DNA of 35,063 nucleotides from Candidatus Methanoperedens sp. (GTDB lineage Archaea > Halobacteriota > Methanosarcinia > Methanosarcinales > Methanoperedenaceae), in NCBI GenBank assembly GCA_026552975.1, contig JAPMTR010000089.1, positions 1-35,063 on the forward strand, written 5' to 3'. The position numbers and the translations under genes are program-made. This document shows positions 18,597 to 28,084 of the stretch, in pieces; positions within the stretch are counted from its first letter, which is position 1; every line of letters begins with the position of its first letter. The notes under the pieces are model-generated. The model made no database searches and had not been told where the DNA came from. It saw only the letters and a program-made list of their open reading frames with translations.

Positions 18597-18630
18597 AAAA
18601 AAAAAGAGTTTGTTCCGTTAAAAGGAACAA
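18597..18630 (-). terminator. Hairpin plus T9 terminator of the NrfD/cytochrome operon
   Basis: On the minus strand, just after the stop of the NrfD-like gene, TTGTTCC (18624-18630 complement) pairs with GGAACAA (18610-18616 complement) around a seven-base loop, and nine T residues follow at 18605-18597 after a short CTC. The combination of a seven-base-pair stem and a T-tract is a good transcription terminator and closes the operon before the cdc48 promoter. Confidence 0.65.
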
Positions 18631-18636
18631 TACTAA

Positions 18637-19794
18637 TTATTCCATATCCTTCCATGGCGGCAGGATAGCTGTTACAACCCGCAATATGATCAACGGAATG
18701 ATACAAATTATTATTGCTGGCAGTACACCTTCCTGGCTGAAGAATACAGGAACATACGTGAGCGTTCCTACAAGGCTCTTGGAAATTTCCTGGCCGCCAA
18801 TTACCACGTTCCATCTCATTGCAAATACTCCAATAATAATGAGAACGGATGAAATCGAGATCATTCCTAATTTCAGGTTTTCCCGCTTTTTCATCAGACT
18901 TACAAGGAGCAGGAGTATAAATGGGATAAATATGCCAAGTGTCAATTGAATTCCCCAGAAGGTAAATCCTATTTTATCTGAAAGAAGCCTATTAATAATG
19001 TCAATATCTTCCCTTGATGCATATTTCATGCTTATTATCTCAAGTAATTCAAGGGTAACATCAAGTATCAGGAAGATCCAGAGATAATGTGCCAGGGACT
19101 GGACACATTTATGGTCTATCGCATGTTTCCTGAACTTCATTGCAATTATATATAATAAGATCAGCAATGCGATCCCGGATACTATTGCCGACATAAGGAA
19201 TATGATAGGCATAAGGGGAGTGGACCACCATGGATTTGCCTTGATGCCACCAAAAATAAAGCCCACATAACCATGCAGGAATGCCGCTGATGGAATACCT
19301 ATTATTGCAAGTTTCTTTGCGAATTTTTCATCGTCATGTAATGCTTTTTCAGAAATATCAAATGAAAACAATGCAAGGCATGAATATAATAATTCTTTCC
19401 AGCCATGGGAACTTAGGGCCATTTTCACAATATCTTCCCTGAATGAAAGCCATATCTCCAGAACCACGATGATCAGATAGAATGAAAAGATATAACCAAA
19501 ACCAGACATTGCAGACGTAAGATGGGGAGTGAACATGATCTCGATGCCCCGTTCAGGACGTCCAAGATGTACAAGTAAAGGCATCATTGCGACAAGCAAG
19601 AATGACAATGCTGTAAGAAGAGCAAATCGTGCAACAGGCTTGATCTCATTTTTCCCAAAAACATGGTATAATGACGAAGCAATGAAAGCACCAGCAACAA
19701 GACCGGTGATATACGGATACAGAACTATCAATATGCTCCACTGTATTTCAGATTCATTGGGGTAAACATAACCCCATATCAAATTCTCTAACAT
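18637..19794 (-). CDS. NrfD/PsrC-type membrane quinol-interacting subunit
   Basis: A 385-residue membrane protein with about nine to ten transmembrane helices, in the pattern of NrfD/PsrC/DsrP subunits: an N-terminal LIWGYVYPNESEIQWSILIVLYPYITGLVAG, LVHLGRPERG after the third helix, AAFLHGYVGFIFGG, and WNVVIGGQEISKS before the last helices. These proteins bind menaquinone or methanophenazine and pass electrons to a partner iron-sulfur protein; in archaea the quinone species is not known from sequence. Its start shares one base with the stop of the ferredoxin gene (TAATG), so the two are translated together. It is the last gene of the operon, followed by a terminator. Confidence 0.92.
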   Translation of the reverse strand: MLENLIWGYVYPNESEIQWSILIVLYPYITGLVAGAFIASSLYHVFGKNEIKPVARFALLTALSFLLVAMMPLLVHLGRPERGIEIMFTPHLTSAMSGFGYIFSFYLIIVVLEIWLSFREDIVKMALSSHGWKELLYSCLALFSFDISEKALHDDEKFAKKLAIIGIPSAAFLHGYVGFIFGGIKANPWWSTPLMPIIFLMSAIVSGIALLILLYIIAMKFRKHAIDHKCVQSLAHYLWIFLILDVTLELLEIISMKYASREDIDIINRLLSDKIGFTFWGIQLTLGIFIPFILLLLVSLMKKRENLKLGMISISSVLIIIGVFAMRWNVVIGGQEISKSLVGTLTYVPVFFSQEGVLPAIIICIIPLIILRVVTAILPPWKDME

Positions 19795-20585
19795 TATTTC
19801 ACTTCCCGGTCTAAACCTATGTAGTACACTTTGGGCTTTGTACCAAGATCGGGTTTAAGAAGGTTGATCCTTTCCACATCGATTATTTTTTTGACTTCAC
19901 TATTTTCATCGTTCAGATCGCCGAATTTTCGCGCACCTGTGGGGCATGCCTGAACGCATGCAGGTAAAAGTCCCTTTGTGATCCTGTGATAACACCATGT
20001 GCATTTATCAGCAGTTCCCTTTTCAATATTGAAGTACCTGGCCCCATAAGGACAGCCCTGTATGCAATATCTGCATCCTATACAATATTCGTAATCGACC
20101 AGGACTACACCATCTTTGGTCTCATATGTTGCTCCAACAGGACAAACCTGCACACAGGGAGCATTATCACAATGATTGCAGATTTTGGGGACATAAAAGG
20201 CTTTCTTTAACTCTTCAGCTGGTATGTTATCCACGAATCCGTCTATTCCTCCATTGGGGGAATCGATAACTACCTCTTCTTCCCTTGTCTGGGAATTGGT
20301 TTTCTTTACACGATATCGTTCTATCCAAGTCCTGTAAACTTCTTCATCAAATGGTACTTCATTCTCATGTTTACAGGCGTTGGCACATCTGCCGCATCCG
20401 ATACATTTTCTTGTATCTACAACATAACCCCAGAAGTGCTTCTCCCAATCATATCCACCTTGATCAATAGTACTTTCAGCTGCGATACTGCTACTTACCA
20501 TTGAACTTATAACAGTCGACCCCGCAGCAGCCCCAATTATTACTTTGCATCCGATCTTGGTAAAATCTCGTCTTGTTATTTCCAT
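19794..20585 (-). CDS. Tat-exported ferredoxin subunit with four [4Fe-4S] clusters (NrfC/PsrB-like)
   Basis: A 263-residue iron-sulfur protein. The N terminus has a twin-arginine motif TRRDFTK (4-10) and hydrophobic stretch, so it is exported folded by the Tat system. Sixteen cysteines make four clusters: 61, 64, 67, 71; 136, 139, 144, 148; 168, 171, 174, 178; and 195, 198, 210, 214, in the order typical of NrfC, PsrB, DmsB and DsrO proteins. It would carry electrons between the NrfD-like subunit and the heme proteins. A very strong ribosome site, AAGGAGGAGG, precedes the ATG. It lies 14 bases downstream of the tetraheme cytochrome gene. No molybdopterin catalytic subunit is present. Confidence 0.95.
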   Translation of the reverse strand: MEITRRDFTKIGCKVIIGAAAGSTVISSMVSSSIAAESTIDQGGYDWEKHFWGYVVDTRKCIGCGRCANACKHENEVPFDEEVYRTWIERYRVKKTNSQTREEEVVIDSPNGGIDGFVDNIPAEELKKAFYVPKICNHCDNAPCVQVCPVGATYETKDGVVLVDYEYCIGCRYCIQGCPYGARYFNIEKGTADKCTWCYHRITKGLLPACVQACPTGARKFGDLNDENSEVKKIIDVERINLLKPDLGTKPKVYYIGLDREVK

Positions 20586-20599
20586 ATTTTTCCTCCTCC

Positions 20600-21049
20600 T
20601 TATACGAACCAGGGCTTATGCGGATTATGGCAATATACACATCTCAGTTCCTTGCCATGTGTGTCTGGATCGATCTGAGGGAAGTTATCTGGTCTTGCAA
20701 CTCGCTTAAAGTGGCACCCACCGCAATATTCGCGTGAGTCATCTGCAGGTGTTAATGTTTCCCTCGCATTAAGGGTGTGTTTTCCAGCCGGACCATGACA
20801 CGTTTCACAGTTCACTGTCTTGTGCCTGTCTTTAACCCATACATCGTAAATAATTTTATGGCAATTCTCCTCTCCGCAACTTATTGAACCTGCATAATTT
20901 ATTGGAAGGTTTCTCATCTCACCCACCGAATCACCTCTATACCATCCATATTGTCCAAAAGAGTCAGGAACTAAAATTGACCTCACGATAATAAAAATAA
21001 ATATTACAAGAGCTAATAATGTAAAAGCTCTTTTTAGATGTGGCTGCAT
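20600..21049 (-). CDS. Membrane-anchored tetraheme cytochrome c
   Basis: A 149-residue cytochrome with an N-terminal membrane anchor (residues 9-27). It has three standard heme sites, CETCH (81-85), CGGCH (109-113) and CVYCH (137-141), and a fourth with four residues between the cysteines, CGEENCH (58-64). CX4CH is a real heme site in Desulfovibrio cytochrome c3, so four hemes are expected. Extra histidines (for example His76, His91, His130, His144) can be distal ligands. The ribosome site is AAAGGTGA. It stands between the hexaheme cytochrome and the ferredoxin and likely connects them electrically on the outer face of the membrane. Confidence 0.93.
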   Translation of the reverse strand: MQPHLKRAFTLLALVIFIFIIVRSILVPDSFGQYGWYRGDSVGEMRNLPINYAGSISCGEENCHKIIYDVWVKDRHKTVNCETCHGPAGKHTLNARETLTPADDSREYCGGCHFKRVARPDNFPQIDPDTHGKELRCVYCHNPHKPWFV

Positions 21050-21099
21050 TACTTTTTCACCTTTCCTTAGATGGGTATCTTGTCATTCGTTTTTTACCC

Positions 21100-22059
21100 T
21101 TATTTCTTTCTCACAACATAGAACACAGCCATCAGGGAAACAAATCCGACCAGACCTTCAAATCCTGGAACCTCAGGTGTGGTAGTCTTTGACGGTGTTG
21201 TGGTAGTGGGGTTCACAATATCTTCAGCTTTTTTTATTTCCTTATTTGCTAAATCTATTGTAACCTCAAAATGAGTCATGTTGAACTCATGCCACATCGG
21301 GGCGAGACTTCCAAGAGTATTAAGAGCATTTTCTGTGTATTTCTTTGCCTGAGTAACATCTGTCCCATTCTTTTCTGCCCAGAATATATCCTGACGTGCC
21401 ATATCAATGTTGAACTGCAATTTATTTACTTTTCTTATCATATCTTCCGCTGTGAGAGGGATATCAATAGGAGCTACTTTTTTGTAAACGGAATGACAGT
21501 TCCCGCATGAAACCCTGAAATCCTCAGGATTTGGTTTCGTGAAAGTATGAGGATGATGGCATGTTGTGCATGTTGGGGCAAGCTGTAATGATTCGAGTTT
21601 CTGGTAATGTATGCTATTCTTAAAATTGTCCAGTTCTTTTTGATGGCATTTTCCACATGTCTCAGGGACATTTGTATAATAAACAGGACTTAGCGGATCG
21701 GTATTGCTCTTAAAATCAACATGCGCTTTTTCTTTTGTCGTCTGCGTTACATCTCCCCCATGACATGCTTCGCAGGTTACGCCTTTCAAGGCATGGACGG
21801 ATTCTGACCACTGCTGGTAATTTGCTGTTGCAAGCTGTCTTACTTTGTCTTCGTGGCATTCAAGAGAACACATTGCATTCCTTTCCAGGTGCTGGATCCT
21901 TATTTGATTGAAACGCTTTTGTTCCTCGATAAAAGGAGTCAATGTCTTATGACAATTAACACATGAGTTTTCAATAGCTGTTCCTTCAGGGATAAACATT
22001 AGAATCCCTGCTAAAACTATGACCACAATTAATAATCTACCAAATAATACAGATCGCAT
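21100..22059 (-). CDS. Hexaheme cytochrome c with PGF-CTERM-like tail
   Basis: A cytochrome of about 319 residues (numbering below from the ATG at 22059). An N-terminal signal peptide (about 8-23) is followed by five CX2CH sites, at 33, 96, 135, 164 and 185, and one with three residues between the cysteines, CSLECH at 64-69, giving up to six hemes. After the heme region comes a helical section (about 205-280), then a Thr/Pro-rich linker and EVPGFEGLVGFVSLMAVFYVVRKK-type ending: PGF at 298-300, a membrane helix and basic C terminus. This is the archaeosortase A sorting signal, so the protein should be cleaved and lipid-anchored on the outside. A GTG at 22068 is an alternative but lies too close to the ribosome site GGAAGGTG. 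It is first in the operon. Confidence 0.92.
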   Translation of the reverse strand: MRSVLFGRLLIVVIVLAGILMFIPEGTAIENSCVNCHKTLTPFIEEQKRFNQIRIQHLERNAMCSLECHEDKVRQLATANYQQWSESVHALKGVTCEACHGGDVTQTTKEKAHVDFKSNTDPLSPVYYTNVPETCGKCHQKELDNFKNSIHYQKLESLQLAPTCTTCHHPHTFTKPNPEDFRVSCGNCHSVYKKVAPIDIPLTAEDMIRKVNKLQFNIDMARQDIFWAEKNGTDVTQAKKYTENALNTLGSLAPMWHEFNMTHFEVTIDLANKEIKKAEDIVNPTTTTPSKTTTPEVPGFEGLVGFVSLMAVFYVVRKK

Positions 22060-22074
22060 TTTATTCACACCTTC

Positions 22075-23588: not shown

Positions 23589-23885
23589 TTATTTCTTAGT
23601 CTTATTCTGGATCTCATCTAGCAATTGCTCATCGCTTTTGCCTTCTGTAACAATTCCAAGATCCTGTGCCATCTTTCTTATCTTCGAAGATGATGTATTT
23701 TCAGCTGGTTTTCCCTCTTTAATGGGTTTCCCTATATCCCTTATTTCCGCATCAATATCATTCTTTGCTTTTTTGAATTCGCCTGTGGCTTTACCAAGTG
23801 ACTTTGCAAGCTCAGGGATCTTGCTCGCACCAAAAAGCAGTATGACAACGATAACAATCATTATTATTTCGGGAGTACCAATCAT
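23589..23885 (-). CDS. tatA: TatA-like twin-arginine translocase subunit (copy 1)
   Basis: A 98-residue TatA/TatB-type protein. The N-terminal membrane helix [31 protein letters not shown] contains the FG-x-x-K-I-P-E hinge and is followed by the amphipathic helix [14 protein letters not shown] and a charged tail. TatA proteins polymerise to form the export channel for folded twin-arginine proteins. The ribosome site AGAGGTG precedes the ATG. It follows a second, similar gene with a two-base gap, the pair probably arising by tandem duplication. TatC is not in the window. Confidence 0.93.
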
Positions 23886-23887
23886 AA

Positions 23888-24199
23888 CTACACCTCTTTC
23901 TTAAAATCAACGTCTTTTCTTAATCTTATTTTTACTCTTATCTCTTCTACAAGTTGTTCAATATTCTTGTTATTCACATCAATTCCCATTTCTACCGCCA
24001 TATCCCGGATCTTAATATCTTTCTGATTCAAAGGTTCGTTCAGTCTTTTGACTTCACGTTCTGTTTCTGTTTGAGCTTTCTTGAATTCTCCGGCTGCTTT
24101 TCCCAGTGATCTTGCTATTTCCGGGATCTTATCAGGCCCGAAAAAAAACATAGCGACTACTAATATCAATATTAATTCTGGAAATCCAATTAATCCCAT
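23888..24199 (-). CDS. TatA-like twin-arginine translocase subunit (copy 2)
   Basis: A 103-residue paralogue of the neighbouring Tat[43 protein letters not shown] has the same membrane helix, FGPDKIPE hinge and amphipathic helix. The tail differs more and is longer in basic residues. The Pro after FG (FGPDKIPE rather than FGASKIPE) is common in TatB as well as TatA, so this copy might play a TatB-like role, although archaea generally use TatA only. It is upstream of copy 1 in the same transcript, 1.9 kb from the Tat-dependent ferredoxin gene. Confidence 0.88.
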
Positions 24200-24613: not shown

Positions 24614-26053
24614 TCATTTTCTCTGGTCCCTTATCGAGCAACTTACAAAAGAATTAGCAAAACCAGTATAAGAAGCCCCGTGCAAATGGGCATAAGATGC
24701 CATGGTATTTTTGACCAGCATACCATCCAGATCGCCTTTTATTCCCTCGCCTCGTTCAAGCCTAATGGCAAAACGAGTATCTGCAGGAATGTCTATTATT
24801 TCTGAATGATGGAATTCATGTCCGATAAATGAAGTTCCTGCGTTTCCGATAACATTATCTTCAATAAATCTGCCAATATTATAGCTGACCACCCTTTTAT
24901 GTCCCATTAAAGTTTTTCCAGGAAGGGCGCCGACCATCTTGAATGTCCCGCCTTTCATTTGTGCCATATTATAATTTCCGCTTCCGGCAACATGTGTTGT
25001 AATCCCCTGTGTTAGATACATCAGTCCGCCGCACTCTGCATAAATCGGAAGACCTTCAGATGATGCCTGTTTTATTGCTTCACGCATGGAGGAATTATCC
25101 TCAAGTTCCTCCGGGAATAATTCCGGGTAACCTCCACCTATGTATAATCCATCCACAACAGGAAGAGTCCTATCATTCACAGGACTAAAATAAACAAGTT
25201 CCGCACCTGCAAGTTCAAGAAGTTCCAGATTGTCGTGGTAATAAAAATTAAAAGCCTCATCAAGGGCAACACCTATCTTAATTTTACCCTCTTGATGTTT
25301 GGGTTTAAAGATATTCTCCTGTGGTTTTTCAAATGGAGGAGCCGAATTGGCAATAGAAATAAACCTGTCAATGTCAATACCTTCTTTGATGATCTCTTTT
25401 ATCCTGCCAAGATTCACATCAAAATCTGCCACCCTTCGCCTCCCTTCAAGAGCAGGGATCAGACCAAGGTGTCTCATCGAAATCTTCATTGAATCATTGC
25501 GCGGGATCACCCCTATCACAGGTGTATTGGTATAAGTTTCAATAGCGGTTTTTGCTTTTTCAGCATGTCGTTTGCCACCTATGTTATTCAGGATAACTCC
25601 CACTACGTTCACTTCAGGATCAAACGATTTGTACCCAGAAACTAGAGCTGCAGTACTTCGGGTTATACTTCTTGCATTTATTGCCAGAATAACGGGGCAT
25701 TGCAAGATCTTGGCGATCTGGGCAGTGCTTCCGATATCACTTGTTGCTTCAAGCCCTTCAAAAAGCCCTCTTACACCTTCAATGACCGCAATATCAGCGC
25801 CATTTGATCCGTGTGAAAAAACCTCACATACAGCATCTTTTGACATCAGATAACCATCCAGGTTCCTTGAATATCTGCCCGTTACTTCAGTATGATAGCT
25901 GGGATCTATGAAATCAAGACCAACTTTATAGGGCTGGACAGTATAACCCATATCACGCAGCACTGACATTATGCCTATTGAGATGGTTGTTTTGCCAGCG
26001 GATGAGCGGTCACCGGCTATGAGGATGCGGGGCATTGCAAGCTTATCTGCCAT
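24614..26053 (-). CDS. cfbB: Ni-sirohydrochlorin a,c-diamide synthase (CfbB; CobB/CbiA family)
   Basis: A 479-residue ATP- and glutamine-dependent amidase. The N-terminal half is a P-loop domain (GDRSSAGKTT near residues 14-23) and the C-terminal half a class-I-like glutamine amidotransferase with YAECGGLMYL, the Cys being the nucleophile, and a late His in the GHEFHHSEI segment. The CobB/CbiA family makes the a,c-diamide of cobyrinate or of nickel-sirohydrochlorin. Position directly after cfbD and cfbC identifies it as CfbB, the F430 enzyme. A cobalamin role as well cannot be excluded. The ATG at 26053 follows AGAGGAAT; Met7 is an alternative. Confidence 0.92.
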   Translation of the reverse strand: MADKLAMPRILIAGDRSSAGKTTISIGIMSVLRDMGYTVQPYKVGLDFIDPSYHTEVTGRYSRNLDGYLMSKDAVCEVFSHGSNGADIAVIEGVRGLFEGLEATSDIGSTAQIAKILQCPVILAINARSITRSTAALVSGYKSFDPEVNVVGVILNNIGGKRHAEKAKTAIETYTNTPVIGVIPRNDSMKISMRHLGLIPALEGRRRVADFDVNLGRIKEIIKEGIDIDRFISIANSAPPFEKPQENIFKPKHQEGKIKIGVALDEAFNFYYHDNLELLELAGAELVYFSPVNDRTLPVVDGLYIGGGYPELFPEELEDNSSMREAIKQASSEGLPIYAECGGLMYLTQGITTHVAGSGNYNMAQMKGGTFKMVGALPGKTLMGHKRVVSYNIGRFIEDNVIGNAGTSFIGHEFHHSEIIDIPADTRFAIRLERGEGIKGDLDGMLVKNTMASYAHLHGASYTGFANSFVSCSIRDQRK

Positions 26054-26122
26054 ATTCCTCTACATTCTTTGATGTTGATTTTGTGCGAGAATCAGTTCGT
26101 ATGAGTTCGTTGTTAAAATTGT

Positions 26123-26152
26123 ATCTGCGTTCATCTGTGTTTATCTGCGGTT
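26123..26152. repeat. Three 10-base tandem units, ATCTG(C/T)GNNN
   Basis: Between cfbB and cfbC, three direct units of ten bases stand in a row: ATCTGCGTTC, ATCTGTGTTT and ATCTGCGGTT. On the other strand they read as CGCAGAT-type units. They resemble, in base order, the CGGAT units of the hairpin at 30451-30541. Short intergenic repeats of this kind occur in many prokaryotes. The function is unknown. Confidence 0.55.
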
Positions 26153-26178
26153 CCATTAATTACATTACTCCAATAATC

Positions 26179-26970
26179 CTATATCCGGGTCAATTCCCTT
26201 AACCTCTTATCATCAAGCGGCTCAGGGATCTTCCCATCTCTTTTTCCCATAATACTTCTGGCAAGTTTCCTGTAAACTCCCGCAATTTCAGAATCAGGAG
26301 CTTTCTCAATAACTGAAAAACCATCCCTTTCACATTTCTGGACAAGGACATCTTTGGGAATAAAAGCGAGAAGCTGGCTTCCGATCTCTTTTGCAAATTC
26401 ACTTACGATCATTTCCTCATTGGAGGCATCGCGTGAGTTACATATCACACCATTTAAGGCTACGTCAAGTCGTGAAAGCCCTTTACAGATATTGTTCGCA
26501 GCATAAAGTGGCATATATTCGCCTGATGTGAGAACATATGTCTCATTCACAAGTCCTTTCTTAACAGGTGCGACAAATCCTCCGCACACGATATCGCCTG
26601 GCACATCATAAATAACAAGATCAGTGTCCTCAATTGCACTTGAGAGCTTTTTAAGGAGGCCTATAGCGACGATTATCCCCCTTCCTGCACACCCTATACC
26701 TGGCTCAGGCCCTCCGATCTCAACACATTTTACACCTTTATAACCAATGAATACGATATCCTGTTCCTTAATATCTATGTCCTCCCTCAATAAGTCCATG
26801 ATCGTCGGGATGCGTCTCCCCTGGAGAAGTGTAATAGATGAATCACTTTTAGGGTCACATCCGATTATCGTAACGCGATGTCCTTCATCAGCGCAGGCGG
26901 CGGCCACATTGGATGCTGTGCTTGATTTTCCAATCCCGCCCTTTCCATAAATTGCGATCTGTTTAGGCAT
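26179..26970 (-). CDS. cfbC: Ni-sirohydrochlorin a,c-diamide reductive cyclase, Fe-protein subunit (CfbC; NifH-like)
   Basis: A 263-residue NifH-like ATPase. The P-loop GKGGIGKSS is at 9-17, the switch region is GCDPKSD, and the two cysteines holding the intersubunit [4Fe-4S] cluster are Cys94 (GIGCAGRG) and Cys129 (DIVCGGF). In nitrogenase-like F430 synthesis it feeds electrons, with ATP, to CfbD, which reduces and cyclises the macrocycle. The ATG at 26970 is chosen because it gives [16 protein letters not shown] as in NifH relatives and overlaps the end of cfbD by eight bases; a longer frame to 27015 would add 15 unrelated residues. Translational coupling with cfbD is likely. Confidence 0.95.
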
Positions 26971-28084
26971 CTTTAGCCAGCTCCCGAAGTGTCGCTCCGA
27001 ATTCAGATTCAACAATATGATTTACCCCCAGAGTCTTGGGGTGAAGGTCGATCTCAACCACAACATAAGTGTGTCCCATCTCCTTTAAAGGCACGACCTG
27101 GCGAGGACCATTGGTTATTGAGAATAGTTCCATATTATTTATATTGTCCATTGGAAGTGCATGGGGAACGCCTGATATGACCGCAAAATCGTAATCGCTG
27201 TACTTTTCACCTATGATCTGGCTGGCAGTATTTCCGGCTACAGGATACTCATCCAGGCCTCCGATAATATGATGGAACTCAAATCCTTTCTTGTTCAGGT
27301 CATCTTTGATCTCCCGTGCATTTCGCCTGTTCTTGGGAAGTCCGACATTTTCATCAAGATTTACCATATTGATAATATTTGAGCCGGATCCGAGCTTTTG
27401 TGCAACTTCTGCTACAGCCAGATTTATATCTGCGAACATAAAAGCGGTTTCCTTTTTGGCATTGAGTATATTGATCCCTTTTTTCCCCTGTTTTATCAAT
27501 TCGAGCAATCTTCCCGCAACTTTATATTTAAGATCCCCGCGGTTGGGTTCAAGATATTCTTTACTGGCGGAGCCGTGTCGCTTTTCAACCATTGTGGCTT
27601 CCTTGAGCAGGGCTTTTTGCCTCTCGAATTCTGCTTCGCTTATGATCCCTGAGGCAAGAGCTGATTCAAGCGCTATAATTACGCCCTGTGTATTATTCCT
27701 GTAACCTGCGTGAACTTCGACTTCGATCACAGGCACATCCGGTTGAACTTCATTAACCGCTTCATGAAGTTCCTCTCCAATTATCATGCTTGCGCATGTG
27801 CCTACAATGCCTATGCGTTTTGGATTGAAGCGCTCTATGACTTTTTCAAGGACCTCAACAAGTGCATCTTTTCCGCCAAAAACAAATCCTGTTTCATCAA
27901 GCGAGGTAGTGACAACTCTCATTCCGTCCTCCTCAAGAAGACGGGCATGCTTGAAGCTGCATCCAGGAGGACCGTGCAGTATTACAACGTCAACCTCCAG
28001 ATCTCTAAGTGTGTACAATGCTGCGACGATCGAGCTGGGTCGCGGGTGCATAATAAGTCGTTCTTTTTCTTTTTTTACGGGCAT
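26963..28084 (-). CDS. cfbD: Ni-sirohydrochlorin a,c-diamide reductive cyclase, catalytic subunit (CfbD; NifD-like)
   Basis: A 373-residue nitrogenase-like protein. It starts [19 protein letters not shown] and has the cluster-related Cys42 ([11 protein letters not shown]) and Cys96 ([10 protein letters not shown]). Three NifD-type Rossmann repeats follow, with [11 protein letters not shown] in the middle and HPKTLGVNH near the end. CfbCD performs the six-electron reduction and ring closure of nickel-sirohydrochlorin diamide to seco-F430. The two cysteines of a homodimer would bind its cluster. The ATG at 28084 has GGAGAAAAAGG upstream. The order is cfbD, cfbC, cfbB; cfbA and cfbE are not in the window. 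Confidence 0.95.

Follow-up and report, generated by a model that had tools for sequence, protein, structure and literature searches.

What does an operon for an NrfD-type membrane protein do when no catalytic subunit stands beside it? The question is raised by four open reading frames (ORFs) on the minus strand, from position 22059 to 18637, of a 35,063-nucleotide stretch of Candidatus Methanoperedens sp. DNA (contig JAPMTR010000089.1, positions 1 to 35,063, assembly GCA_026552975.1; this whole stretch is called the window below). In operon order they encode a hexaheme cytochrome c, a tetraheme cytochrome c, a ferredoxin and NrfD. The operon is real and conserved, and is already described in print as a respiratory module (PMC4683180, PMC7327174), so that it is not new. 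A first, sequence-only reading had proposed a quinol:cytochrome module feeding extracellular electron acceptors, which agrees with the published interpretation (PMC7327174, PMC7082337, PMC10542353), and we consider it very probable that the module is a menaquinol:cytochrome c oxidoreductase that exports electrons. The present analysis adds a tested lack of a molybdopterin neighbour on the contigs available, a ten-heme count, a series of CX2CH, CX4CH and CX6CH spacings at one heme site, and two deletions of heme 2 in the hexaheme family.

The first and second genes are separated by 50 nt and the second and third by 14 nt, and the last two overlap by 1 nt; the single operon claimed earlier is confirmed. 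The terminator, previously called clear, is graded here as probable: a stem-loop with a T run lies behind NrfD (18610..18630, minus strand), in a region with six terminator-like sites against a shuffled mean of 2.6 (standard deviation 1.8). Pfam and NCBIfam agree with the protein type assigned to each of the four genes. The genome from which the window derives comprises 2.57 Mb in 121 contigs and is 93.6% complete; its single match to PF03916 is the NrfD of the operon.

This NrfD (18637..19794, 385 amino acids) was correctly recognized from sequence as NrfD-like. It matches PF03916 at 3e-48 (165.5 bits, cut-off 25.8), and its hydropathy and conserved positions are those of an NrfD/PsrC-type integral membrane subunit with a putative menaquinol site. 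Over 18 chosen sequences from several phyla, 73 alignment positions are invariant, and the protein is 48-59% identical to NrfD in 14 aligned sequences from distant modules. A PDB search with a profile of the 18 sequences gave nothing at E 0.1 and one with the single sequence nothing at E 1, so that these searches gave no template for the quinone site. The ferredoxin (19794..20585, 263 amino acids) is of the NrfC/PsrB/DsrO-like type, with Fer4_11 at 2.2e-29 and, as its nearest PDB chain, 2vpw_B, named NrfC protein. Sixteen cysteines in four motifs, apart from one more in the leader, bear out the four [4Fe-4S] clusters ascribed to it; export by the Tat pathway, the other half of that claim, is predicted from an N-terminal RRDF twin-arginine-like leader visible by eye. 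The protein also passes the NCBIfam DsrO equivalog (202.7 bits, cut-off 200), and annotation by this cut-off alone would label it DsrO.

No catalytic gene had been seen beside the operon in the window, and the same is found in its relatives. Within 10 kb of the operon's tetraheme gene, on the same contig, the molybdopterin family PF00384 has no match in any of 23 Methanoperedens genomes, and in two of them such a match lies on the operon's contig 37 and 181 kb away. Some operons are at contig ends and part of their neighbourhood is therefore unseen, so that the neighbour counts describe what the contigs show. The test is able to detect a catalytic gene: genomes G000-G023 have 33 further NrfD genes, and PF00384 is found no more than 10 kb from 10 of these and 11.5 kb from one more. 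A full-length NrfA was likewise not found in the window's genome at its present completeness. There are four partial matches to PF02335, the best covering profile positions 247-386 of 438 in a 977-amino-acid frame. One of the four is the hexaheme gene itself, at 26.7 bits (above the cut-off of 24.1) over 69 of the 438 positions. The hexaheme protein was nonetheless rejected as an NrfA: twelve conserved histidines leave no obvious open heme site, and we thus read the weak match as a shared multiheme pattern.

The order of the operon is conserved across the genus. Tetraheme, ferredoxin and NrfD genes are adjacent in all 24 named Methanoperedens loci (L022-L045), and the hexaheme gene lies upstream in 22 of them; the contigs of the other two (L022, L030) start at the tetraheme gene. 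In 18 of the 24, NrfD is followed by a second hexaheme gene (hexaheme2) and a gene for a 13-heme protein, a pair that is not in this place in L022, L028, L031, L032, L033 and L042. Among 45 distant loci (L057-L101) from Archaeoglobi and bacteria, the ferredoxin gene is followed by NrfD in every case, NrfD being split into two frames in L069. In 44 of these, a tetraheme-protein homologue carrying 4 to 8 heme motifs stands upstream; the remaining locus, L066, has a 5-heme ORF at a contig end. A quick NrfD tree places the window within a group of 29 Methanoperedenaceae rows (support 100), and Methanoperedens has as its nearest neighbours rows from Archaeoglobi, Pseudomonadota and other groups (support 87, with open forks).

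Similar ferredoxins were also seen in other settings. At L048:6493-7810 a Rieske gene directly precedes a ferredoxin 69% like that of the window, with no adjoining NrfD or cytochrome match, and ORFs of Rieske-like size, judged by size only, precede similar ferredoxins in several of the loci L046-L055. At L055:6471-9013 the gene after the ferredoxin encodes a YHS-domain protein of the F420 hydrogenase/dehydrogenase beta type (FrhB). A contig labelled Ruminiclostridium (L052) has a ferredoxin resembling those of Methanoperedens, divided between two ORFs; its presence there may be a binning error.

Genes with the motifs of the two cytochromes are found in published data sets. Arshad et al. (2015) list MPEBLZ_03194, with five CxxCH and one CxxxCH, and MPEBLZ_03195, with three CxxCH and one CxxxxCH, both expressed (PMC4683180) and homologous to ANME2D_00599 and 00600 (PMC4683180, Table 2). 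These are neighbours by gene number and have exactly the odd motifs of the operon; the correspondence was drawn from motif pattern and gene numbers, not from sequence comparison. MPEBLZ_04299 and 04300, the latter with 12 CxxCH and one CxxxCH, correspond to ANME2D_00603 and 00604 (PMC4683180), which by their motifs would fit hexaheme2 and the 13-heme protein. The main text of that paper does not name NrfD. Leu et al. (2020) interpreted clusters of NrfD, ferredoxin and 3- and 6-heme cytochromes as menaquinone:cytochrome c oxidoreductases (PMC7082337, PMC7327174), and such clusters are reported from a subsurface Methanoperedens (PMC9123182). In Zhang et al. (2023) the Group 1 cytochromes 02260, 02261, 02264 and 02265 were highest with soluble iron (PMC10542353). 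The operon is probably this Group 1, with ferredoxin and NrfD as 02262 and 02263, as the spacing of the gene numbers suggests. NrfD does not occur in the main texts of PMC9012536, PMC7829351 and PMC8280799, and passages of these papers and of PMC9084895 are silent on the operon.

The contacts between subunits, the direction of flow, the occupancy of the hemes and the acceptor are proposed as follows. During reverse methanogenesis, according to published work, Fpo and HdrDE reduce menaquinone. The resulting menaquinol would be oxidised by the membrane protein NrfD, and the four-cluster ferredoxin, exported to the outer face, would take up the electrons. From there they would move to the membrane-anchored tetraheme cytochrome and on to the hexaheme cytochrome, whose C-terminal tail would keep it attached outside the cell. 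The hexaheme protein would hand them to larger cytochromes and these to an acceptor outside, for example a pseudoperiplasmic reductase, Fe(III) or Mn(IV). Bis-His heme c is presumed at each of the ten sites, the CX3CH and the CX4CH among them. Two PF02621 (menaquinone pathway) proteins and five matches to PF01578 (cytochrome c assembly) are encoded in the window's genome. It is likely that methane electrons leave the cell at this module in freshwater methane-oxidising archaea, and the true heme count therefore matters for models of the route; counting CXXCH only gives 8 hemes instead of 10.

Several observations weigh against this interpretation. In one distant locus, from Candidatus Desantisbacteria (L069:4081-7460), a molybdopterin enzyme and a second ferredoxin lie downstream of NrfD, the only molybdopterin match among 18 neighbour ORFs scanned in 14 of the 45 distant loci. 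The species of the window and its nearest relative (G018, the contig of which is locus L022) are without the hexaheme2/13-heme pair beside NrfD; the pair sits elsewhere, at L103 in the window's genome and at L171 in G018. The operon was tied to Group 1 of Zhang et al. by the spacing of gene numbers, and in that study Group 5 was highest with nitrate and Group 3 on an electrode (PMC10542353). In Leu et al. the group 1 NrfD clusters with Dehalococcoidales RBG-16-60-22, and the numbers of the NrfD groups differ between two sentences of the text, 4 and 5 as against 1 and 2 (PMC7327174). Our quick tree sets the Chloroflexota rows, RBG_16_60_22 among them, as a separate group, and for this reason the group number of Leu et al. 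is not confirmed.

The best-surviving alternative, which we nevertheless regard as unlikely, is that the module chiefly feeds a pseudoperiplasmic reductase encoded elsewhere (for nitrate, nitrite or another acceptor) and not an extracellular mineral or partner. Expression of the matching MPEBLZ genes was abundant during methane oxidation with nitrate, and transfer through the pseudoperiplasm to nitrate reductase was proposed in that paper (PMC4683180); the cluster matched by gene spacing, by contrast, peaked with soluble iron, and it was Group 5 that was highest with nitrate (PMC10542353). PF00384 has two matches in the window's genome, one in a frame of 1172 and one in a frame of 433 amino acids, and the PF02335 matches are only the partial ones described above.

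It is highly improbable that the module runs in reverse, with outside cytochromes reducing menaquinone. In its favour, NrfD-type complexes can work in either direction, and Qrc is a menaquinone reductase. However, the reduced menaquinone supplied by methane oxidation requires an outlet, expression data in print agree with respiration (PMC7082337, PMC10542353), and the operon's proteins fall far below the cut-offs for QrcD (21.4 of 570 bits) and QrcC (126.6 of 400).

The hexaheme cytochrome (21100..22059) starts at the ATG at 22059, giving 319 amino acids, or at a GTG at 22068 (ORF 21100-22068), and has an N-terminal signal or anchor. Its motifs are, in order, CVNCH, CSLECH, CEACH, CGKCH, CTTCH and CGNCH, i.e. 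the five CXXCH and one CX3CH that had been read from the sequence; CSLECH, at heme 2, occupies 21853..21870. The motif spacing of 2, 3, 2, 2, 2, 2 is identical in all 29 distinct orthologues, and the CX3CH is also kept in 27 of 29 distinct paralogues. With 56 of 58 distinct sequences having it, this motif, which the sequence-only reading had called rarer than CX4CH, is common in the family. In a hand-chosen alignment of 50 of the 58 distinct family matches, twelve histidine columns fit six bis-His hemes. Nine are complete (50/50) and the others have 49, 49 and 48, the gaps falling solely in the two rows without CX3CH, both of which lack His60. These two paralogues, L103:5846-6721 (G000:C60) and L102:7575-8462 (G000:C50), are on different contigs of the window's own genome. 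In the L103 paralogue the beginning of heme site 1 is fused directly to the end of heme site 2. The nearest relative, G018, retains CX3CH in its three corresponding genes. The joint loss of the CX3CH and His60 points to heme 2 being a genuine site that has a ligand of its own and that can be lost; the paralogues indicate that such loss occurs in nature. A PDB search with the hexaheme profile found no convincing relative, the best match (E 0.038) being to a designed protein.

The C-terminal tail of the hexaheme protein (21103..21171, minus strand) resembles a PGF-CTERM sorting motif, as had been noted. It scores 18.0 bits against a cut-off of 18.8 for PF18204 and 13.1 against 24.5 for TIGR04126, both below cut-off, and a PGF-CTERM match at E 0.01 was found in 7 of 37 hexaheme family members. 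Three matches to archaeosortase TIGR04125 exceed the cut-off in the window's genome. One archaeosortase match (G000:C104:15197-15976, L183) carries an in-frame TGA.

The tetraheme cytochrome (20600..21049, 149 amino acids) has one hydrophobic segment, residues 3-33, and four motifs, CGEENCH, CETCH, CGGCH and CVYCH, which confirms a membrane-anchored protein with one CX4CH and three CXXCH. The CX4CH is heme 1 (20858..20878). The residue numbers given earlier for the two odd sites, Cys64-Cys68 (CX3CH) and Cys58-Cys63 (CX4CH), are also right, the first cytochrome being counted from the ATG at 22059. Homologues occur in archaea and bacteria. In a hand-chosen alignment of 45 of 80 distinct homologue matches, heme 1 reads CX4CH in 24 rows, CXXCH in 19 and CX6CH in 2; both cysteines and the histidine of the site are present in every row. 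Eight histidine columns fit four bis-His hemes, seven at 45/45 and one at 43/45. Of the rows with CXXCH, 18 come from bacteria and Archaeoglobi, and the remaining one, L136, is a second copy belonging to a Methanoperedens genome. CX6CH is found in two distinct proteins, L168 (same as L040) and L134 (same as L042), which are two codons longer than the CX4CH versions; the orthologues L040:6533-6988 and L042:6533-6988 read CSGINNECH and CSGIGNECH at heme 1. At L174:7443-7889 (G004:C79) lies a second tetraheme gene whose heme 1 is CXXCH, with no adjoining ferredoxin-size ORF among those listed and no NrfD match on its contig.

We give even chances to the idea, suggested by this alignment, that the loop between the cysteines of heme 1 grew stepwise around a still working c-heme, from CX2CH in bacteria and Archaeoglobi through CX4CH in Methanoperedens to CX6CH in two species. 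A literature search confined to the spellings CX5CH and CX6CH produced no report of a cytochrome among the matches listed. If CX6CH does hold heme, archaeal cytochrome c maturation would accept a spacing for which this search found no printed report. The homologues, in which a single position is CXXCH, CX4CH or CX6CH, offer a ready test of the spacing tolerance of this maturation.

The CX3CH is kept in nearly all distinct hexaheme-family sequences, and the position of the CX4CH is CX4CH, CXXCH or CX6CH in all the aligned tetraheme homologues; neither motif is a chance occurrence. Both probably bind heme, as the sequence-only reading supposed, on account of this conservation and of the analogy with MmcA of Methanosarcina acetivorans, in which each of the seven motif peptides, those of CXXXCH and CXXXXCH among them, showed heme mass (PMC11024163). 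The least probable of the alternatives is that these sites are heme-free and the proteins pentaheme and triheme: the CXXCH-only counts of 5 and 3 (PMC4683180, Table 2), the 3- and 6-heme description of Leu et al. (PMC7082337) and the two paralogues without the CX3CH site would suit it, but 19 of the 45 chosen homologues have CXXCH in place of CX4CH, with Cys, Cys and His unchanged, the paralogues also lost His60, and MmcA bears heme on both motif types (PMC11024163).

Beyond the operon, a 743-amino-acid ORF, CDC48 ATPase-like by eye, lies 3' of NrfD both in the window and in G018. By Pfam, two adjacent TatA/B/E genes are found at 23592-24199 of the window (minus strand), about 1.5 kb from the operon with its Tat-like exported ferredoxin. 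CbiA/GATase and nitrogenase-component-1-like genes (Pfam) occupy 24617-28084, also on the minus strand, and are perhaps involved in coenzyme F430 biosynthesis.

Compared with known systems, the operon shares subunits with several complexes to which it was not assigned. With NrfABCD it shares an NrfC-like ferredoxin and an NrfD-like subunit; membership was rejected on the NrfD equivalog score (73.5 of 347.6) and the lack of a full-length NrfA in the genome. With DsrMKJOP it has in common an exported ferredoxin, an NrfD-like subunit and a small membrane cytochrome, which has four hemes in the operon and three in DsrJ. This membership was rejected as well, the DsrP equivalog giving 54.1 bits of 350. 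No DsrM or DsrK was found by Pfam in the four-gene operon or in ten other ORFs of the window, and no DsrM/DsrK model was searched genome-wide. Qrc was rejected on the QrcD score given above, and polysulfide reductase or another complex iron-sulfur molybdoenzyme (CISM) because no molybdopterin catalytic subunit stands beside the operon.

MmcA, a multiheme cytochrome from the same order, has one CXXXCH and one CXXXXCH, both with heme; it differs in being a heptaheme protein of the Rnf operon and does not belong to the operon described here (PMC11024163). The modules of Archaeoglobi, Chloroflexota, Bacillota and other groups (L057-L101) have the same tetraheme-ferredoxin-NrfD order, with CXXCH at heme 1 in the aligned rows and with varying partner cytochromes. 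L068 has a related hexaheme gene at a distance of 3 kb, and L063, L087, L093 and L098 give weak hexaheme-like matches. The clusters of Leu et al. share the NrfD-like membrane protein, the 4Fe-4S ferredoxin and the multiheme cytochromes. The window's operon differs from them in that its small cytochrome has four heme sites, not three, and in that hexaheme2 and the 13-heme gene are not beside NrfD; the orthologous loci belong to the same genus.

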